64,000 nt of DNA from Dactylorhiza incarnata (taxonomy: Eukaryota; Streptophyta; Magnoliopsida; Asparagales; Orchidaceae), in assembly GCA_033032865.1 (NCBI GenBank), contig JAWHQI010000028.1:6715001-6779000 (forward strand), given 5' to 3'. Both the position numbers and the translations under genes were made by a program. Under the pieces are notes generated by a model, which was given only the letters and a program-made list of their open reading frames with translations, did not search any database and was not told the DNA's origin. Below, piece by piece: positions 19,782 to 19,863 of this stretch (the first letter of the stretch is position 1; the number at the start of each line of letters is the position of its first letter).

Positions 19782-19863
19782 CTAATTGCACACGAATAAA
19801 ACATACAGTTGCACAACAGTATAATCACAAATAGCTATGCAAAAGCTAATTTTTAATTCATAC
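19782..19863 (-). other. Tekay-1 putative gag/pol intron (82 nt)
   Basis: On the minus strand the donor is CACAG|GTATGA and the acceptor GCAATTAG|GCTTT; the body is T-rich. The intron is phase 1. Splicing gives VVTG then FVLIFNYPARAL before FDTG, with no residue lost or added compared with Tekay-type proteins that have gag and protease fused. Unspliced RNA encodes Gag ending G-M-N-stop (TAA 19853-19855). The only start for pol in its own frame would be GTG at 19789-19791, which is inside the intron. Splicing is inferred from sequence. Confidence 0.72.

Follow-up and report, generated by a model that had tools for sequence, protein, structure and literature searches.

A putative 81–82-nt intron at the gag/protease border of a Tekay-like Ty3/gypsy retrotransposon family in Dactylorhiza incarnata

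A stretch of 64,000 nucleotides (nt) from the orchid Dactylorhiza incarnata (contig JAWHQI010000028.1, positions 6,715,001 to 6,779,000; hereafter the window), part of a 3.27 Gb genome in 3184 contigs, carries three long terminal repeat (LTR) retrotransposon copies, T1, T2 and T4, which a preliminary description had called Tekay-type and in which a segment of 81–82 nt parts gag from protease. We read this segment as a short spliceosomal intron at the gag/protease border that would yield Gag when retained and Gag-Pol when spliced, and give this reading a probability of roughly 70%. The segment's identity as a spliceosomal intron is well supported by its position, frame, donor strength and base composition and by its recurrence in many copies.

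The insert occupies positions 19782–19863 in T1 (82 nt, minus strand; CAG/GTATGA...CAATTAG/G), 11174–11254 in T2 (81 nt, minus strand) and 58743–58824 in T4 (82 nt, plus strand), a decayed, diverged copy whose flanks are of weak homology. In all three it starts with GT, ends with AG and interrupts the reading in phase 1, and its removal keeps the frame. In T1, the insert (GTATGA...CAATTAG) splits a Gly codon after the first base, between a gag end that reads ...QEAIRQADVVTG and a protease that resumes as FVLIFNYPARAL-FDTG. Exactly 12 residues separate the junction Gly from the F-D-T/S-G motif in T1 and T4, and likewise in T2, and reading through the insert gives GMN-stop, GMD-stop and G-stop in the three copies. 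On coordinates, lengths, ends, phase, the spacing in T1 and T4 and the read-through products, the preliminary description was accurate.

The T1 gag open frame (19853–20752, minus strand; PF03732, E 1.7e-16) ends at this GMN-stop within the insert. The pol open frame (17497–19824, minus strand) contains protease, reverse transcriptase (RT), RNase H and the integrase zinc-binding domain (PF08284, PF00078, PF17917 and PF17921). The insert lies upstream of protease, which is read in a single open frame with RT. The two T1 frames do not overlap, the gag stop being at 19853–19855 and pol opening at 19824. In T1, the protease is in a different frame from gag; in T2, the protease (10185–11213, minus strand; PF08284, E 5.2e-26) is in the gag frame, behind two stops, and the corresponding gag piece is interrupted (11457–11924, minus strand; PF03732, E 1.2e-13). 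Despite this difference in frame relation, the GT-AG ends produce the same junction in both copies.

The border codon can be located by homology. We collected 122 related proteins (the best 120 of 5293 plus two from another search), to which P0123 was later added, making 123. Of the 122, 84 contain the protease motif and 38 do not, and 81 of these 84 extend back 13 residues, with three too short to count; a Gly stands exactly 12 residues before the motif in 79 of the 81 readable relatives and a Ser in the other two. The border codon is thus fixed by homology, independently of GT and AG; the GT-AG ends coincide with it, and the insert therefore breaks up a reading unit that relatives carry without interruption. 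The closest relatives by identity over most of the query, among the matches listed, come from another orchid, Platanthera zijinensis, and one of its proteins, P0009 (61%), is the closest by identity to cover the border, again among the matches listed. It reads ...QEAIRQPDVVTG-FVVVSGYPARVL-FDTG; its words on both sides of the border closely resemble those of T1, and its spacing agrees when the T1 gag and protease ends are compared with it separately. An alignment-based gag search added only P0123, a model reading ...DVVTDKDQEQ that leaves the gag reading at the same border residue, an ambiguous departure that may be a splice in the model or a mutation.

Scans of viral contigs with a T1 pol piece and with an alignment returned no relatives. 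Retrotransposon pol-like sequence also occurs at 19 loci in genome records labelled bacterial or archaeal, probably as contamination. The border is readable in three of these loci: two (L001 and L017) run through it uninterrupted, keeping the 12-residue spacing and lacking the insert, and the third (L019) shows no clear likeness. In 20 sampled 10-kb stretches from two contigs, T1 internal sequence was absent, and the single distant protease match had no insert.

The ends of the insert resemble splice sites beyond their dinucleotides. Scored over nine positions against the consensus CAG/GTAAGT, the donor matches 7/9 in T1, T2 and T4, a score of at least 7/9 being reached by 85 of the 6843 GTs on both strands of the window. 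Among the 4271 segments of 82 nt on the T1 coding strand, 18 run from GT to AG, and only one of these 18, the insert itself, has a 7/9 donor. In 20000 shuffled inserts, with ends fixed by homology and shifts of at most 3, GT..AG arose in 5.0% (T1) and 10.6% (T4), so the dinucleotides by themselves prove little; GT..AG together with a 7/9 donor arose in 0.16% and 0.15%, the fixed exon CAG supplying three of the nine positions. Base composition points the same way. The inserts are 65–71% AT and 43–46% T, against 46–53% AT and 18–37% T in the 300-nt flanks, which is the AT and U excess over flanking exons expected of plant introns, described as U-rich (PMC3735527).

The family is numerous and recent. 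A 320-nt query spanning the T1 border gave 2904 first-look candidates, of which 40 matches were scored: T1 and 39 others, all at least 99% identical, 38 of them matching the whole query and one bases 2–320. GT and AG are kept in all 20 copies fetched from the 39, in line with the earlier statement that splice ends are conserved, which also holds in the three window copies compared at the border. Across T1 and 19 copies, the 319-base copy being left out, variable sites number 3/120 in gag, 6/82 in the insert and 10/118 in protease, and one copy (L054) has TAG in place of CAG before the donor. The claim that the early stop is kept holds for the window copies; elsewhere, the first TAA has become CAA in five of the 19 (L048, L050, L051, L055 and L057), through one shared change, and the next stop comes six codons on, so Gag would not end at exactly the same residue in every copy. 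A stop within the insert is nevertheless present in 19/19, and in all 22 translated copies (T1, T2, T4 and the 19) it falls within 10 codons of the border.

Comparison of T1 with T2, which are 85% identical across 4.2 kb, showed that the insert differs at 9/80 sites, fewer than third codon positions in protease-RT (179/760; Fisher p 0.011) or gag (65/217; p 0.0008) and more, without significance, than protease-RT first and second positions (p 0.09). The intron body had been described as diverging; it has instead changed less than the third positions around it, which possibly reflects constraint inside the intron, as seen in one pair of copies. Changes at codon positions 1, 2 and 3 number 16, 22 and 65 in gag and 62, 31 and 179 in protease-RT, and this third-position excess suggests that selection acted on both regions at a time when the insert was already in place.

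Taken together, these features would fit the following scheme. If the intron is retained, translation would stop a few codons past the border and give Gag only, and the same unspliced RNA would serve as the packaged genome; packaged RNA must be unspliced because the intron persists in new copies. Were spliced RNA copied as well, intron-less copies would be an expected by-product. With the intron removed by host spliceosomes, the gag frame would continue into protease, RT and integrase to give Gag-Pol. Provided that splicing happens, the reading frames dictate that unspliced RNA would encode Gag and spliced RNA Gag-Pol, and partial splicing would then set the proportion of Gag to Gag-Pol. We infer that the segment is spliced, that only part of the RNA undergoes this and that the ratio is controlled in this way in place of frameshifting. 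Of the interpretation first offered for these elements, the intron is thus supported by position, frame, donor, composition and copies, and the switch and ratio control would follow from it conditionally. A broader version, in which a chromovirus lineage evolved an intron-retention switch at this border independently of Ogre, with unspliced RNA as genome and Gag message, spliced RNA as Gag-Pol message and splicing held partial by signals within the 82-nt intron, seems to us evenly poised between true and false. Under that version, packaging must favour uncut RNA, because at least 40 near-identical copies arose without loss of the intron.

Several observations weigh against the intron. T1 itself is broken, with a gag frame change near 20753 and an in-frame stop at 17497. 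T2 has five matches to YTNAY, the branch-site motif, and T4 has three; the only match in T1 lies 16 nt from its acceptor and is not well placed. The splice-site score covers the donor, with the acceptor ...CAATTAG outside it. The GT and AG of T4 lend weak independent support, because that copy is decayed and its flanks lack good matches among the 123 fetched relatives (best E 0.15 for the gag end and 0.06 for the protease piece). T2 is decaying; aligned with T1, its insert carries indels of 2 and 1 nt, its gag part of 9 and 3 nt and its protease-RT of 1, 1 and 2 nt. The intron-body indel that had been pointed out is therefore real without singling out the insert, because protease-RT also carries non-triplet ones. 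The agreement among copies partly reflects recent descent, because the sample was chosen for likeness to T1 and more distant copies lie outside it, and it speaks for recent spread with the insert, not for deep conservation. The continuity of P0009 may be that of contiguous DNA or of a spliced gene model. One gag model, P0001, ends in VVTGTV, which fits a stop in the intron and equally an intron-less VVTGT reading cut short. Finally, the case for splicing is read from DNA sequence.

The alternative that survives best, although we consider it unlikely, is a constitutive intron without a switch, in which nearly all messenger RNA is spliced and uncut RNA serves as packaged genome and makes little Gag. 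It predicts the same anatomy, the sequence holds nothing that sets the proportion spliced, and in BARE the packaged RNA is separate from the translated RNA (PMC3735527). The stop within 10 codons of the border in 22/22 copies, which gives Gag a neat end, and the divergence of the insert below third positions, which may mean retained signals, count weakly against it, the latter in one pair of copies.

Recoding, in which the stops that part gag from pol are bypassed by ribosomal read-through, shifting or hopping, is quite improbable. It reportedly operates between gag and pol in diverse LTR elements, and gag does end at a stop just before protease. Recoding is disfavoured because T1 (82 nt) would need a different frame from T2 (81 nt), because two stops stand in the T2 reading, as they do in the T1 gag frame, and because the T1 gag frame closes before pol opens; a hop would have to span about 27 codons, and nothing seen points to one. 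Frameshifting, read-through and hopping were ranked low on these gag/pol frame relations. Most improbable is a dead insert, an ancestral 82-nt insertion that split gag from pol in a family then spread by proteins acting in trans, with GT and AG there by chance. In its favour, T1 has defects elsewhere and T4 has decayed, the two dinucleotides by themselves arise at the fixed ends in 5–11% of shuffles, and trans-mobilised families such as BARE2 exist (PMC3735527). Against it stand the placement at the junction codon, the frame-keeping ends, the 7/9 donor (0.16% of shuffles) and the third-position excess in gag and protease-RT between T1 and T2.

T1 is a whole LTR retrotransposon (14341–23273, minus strand) with LTRs at 14340–16323 and 21298–23273 (98.1% identity), TG...CA ends and GGTTT on both sides as target-site duplication. 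A primer-site-like TGGTATCAGA adjoins the 5' LTR and a purine tract the 3' LTR, as read directly from the sequence; we take these to be the primer site and purine-tract signal. Beyond the in-frame stop lie an integrase core piece (16774–17496, minus strand; PF00665, E 6.5e-06, under the cut-off) and an integrase C-terminal piece with an SH3 and a chromodomain-like end (16339–16770, minus strand; PF24626, E 4.1e-19), the stretch 16310–16770 being mostly coding. Chromodomain matches (PF00385) stand at the expected place after integrase in T1 (E 0.038) and T2 (E 0.024), both under the cut-off. The LTRs, the target-site duplication and the order gag, protease, RT, RNase H, integrase are those of a Ty3/gypsy element; the Tekay label comes from the preliminary description and a presumed resemblance, and Tekay-like is the most we would say.

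Other elements share the window. A stretch of about 155 nt in the T1 LTR (16084–16238), with an internal 57-nt repeat, recurs at 74–77% identity at 1695–1851, 6458–6614, 24130–24285 and 29798–29937. A further element at 26336–28669 (minus strand) encodes Retrotrans_gag and aspartic protease within a single continuous frame of 777 amino acids. A Gypsy RT fragment at 38770–39951 (plus strand) is 66–70% identical in DNA to parts of T1, and no gag/protease border was seen in the translated stretch 37500–39500. At 52228–56349 (minus strand), two adjacent open frames of a Copia-type element together encode gag, integrase and RVT_2 domains, with direct repeats nearby from 51049 and 56395.

Five systems invite comparison: Ogre (Ty3/gypsy, Tat), Bianca, BARE1 and EVADE (all Ty1/copia), and CRR, the centromeric chromovirus of rice. 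Neumann et al. 2019 describe Bianca and Ogre as two frames parted by a gap, which in Ogre is an intron that parts two reading frames of gag-pol; its removal from some of the transcripts allows the complete polyprotein to be translated (PMC6317226). In the T1 family, by contrast, the insert lies between gag and protease, is 81–82 nt long and belongs to an element with a chromodomain-like end, and whereas Ogre splicing has been demonstrated, here it is predicted from DNA. The Bianca gap, 172 bp on average, is similar in layout but belongs to the copia superfamily and comes without splice evidence in the portion of PMC6317226 covered. BARE1 has a U-rich 104-nt intron with a CAG/GTAT donor near the gag end and partial splicing, but the opposite logic, with spliced RNA making Gag only and unspliced RNA Gag-Pol (PMC3735527). 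EVADE likewise uses splicing to control Gag against Pol, but is a copia element whose spliced RNA makes Gag only (PMC12786077). CRR is a Gypsy element with a spliced transcript, but its splicing removes rt and makes two frames (PMC3735527), unlike a gag/protease intron. The preliminary description had mentioned an intron in gag-pol of Ogre and copia splicing to Gag-only RNA, and both agree with these papers (PMC6317226, PMC3735527, PMC12786077). According to a 2025 review, introns are generally absent from plant LTR elements, Ogre and EVADE being among the exceptions. We recognised no report of a Tekay gag/protease intron in an open-access literature search, within the portions covered of PMC6317226, PMC7730604, PMC12786077, PMC9289625, PMC11963269 and PMC3735527. 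Intron control in gag-pol is already known; its placement between gag and protease in a Tekay-like element would be new, if the segment is spliced.

To our knowledge, how plant Ty3/gypsy elements with a single frame produce more Gag than Pol is poorly known. If the reading proposed here is true, intron-based control arose in a second branch of Ty3/gypsy, with the same polarity as in Ogre and opposite to that of BARE and EVADE. A family that combines many recent, near-identical copies with an 82-nt intron exactly at the border, and that has continuous relatives for comparison, would make the Gag/Pol question directly testable.
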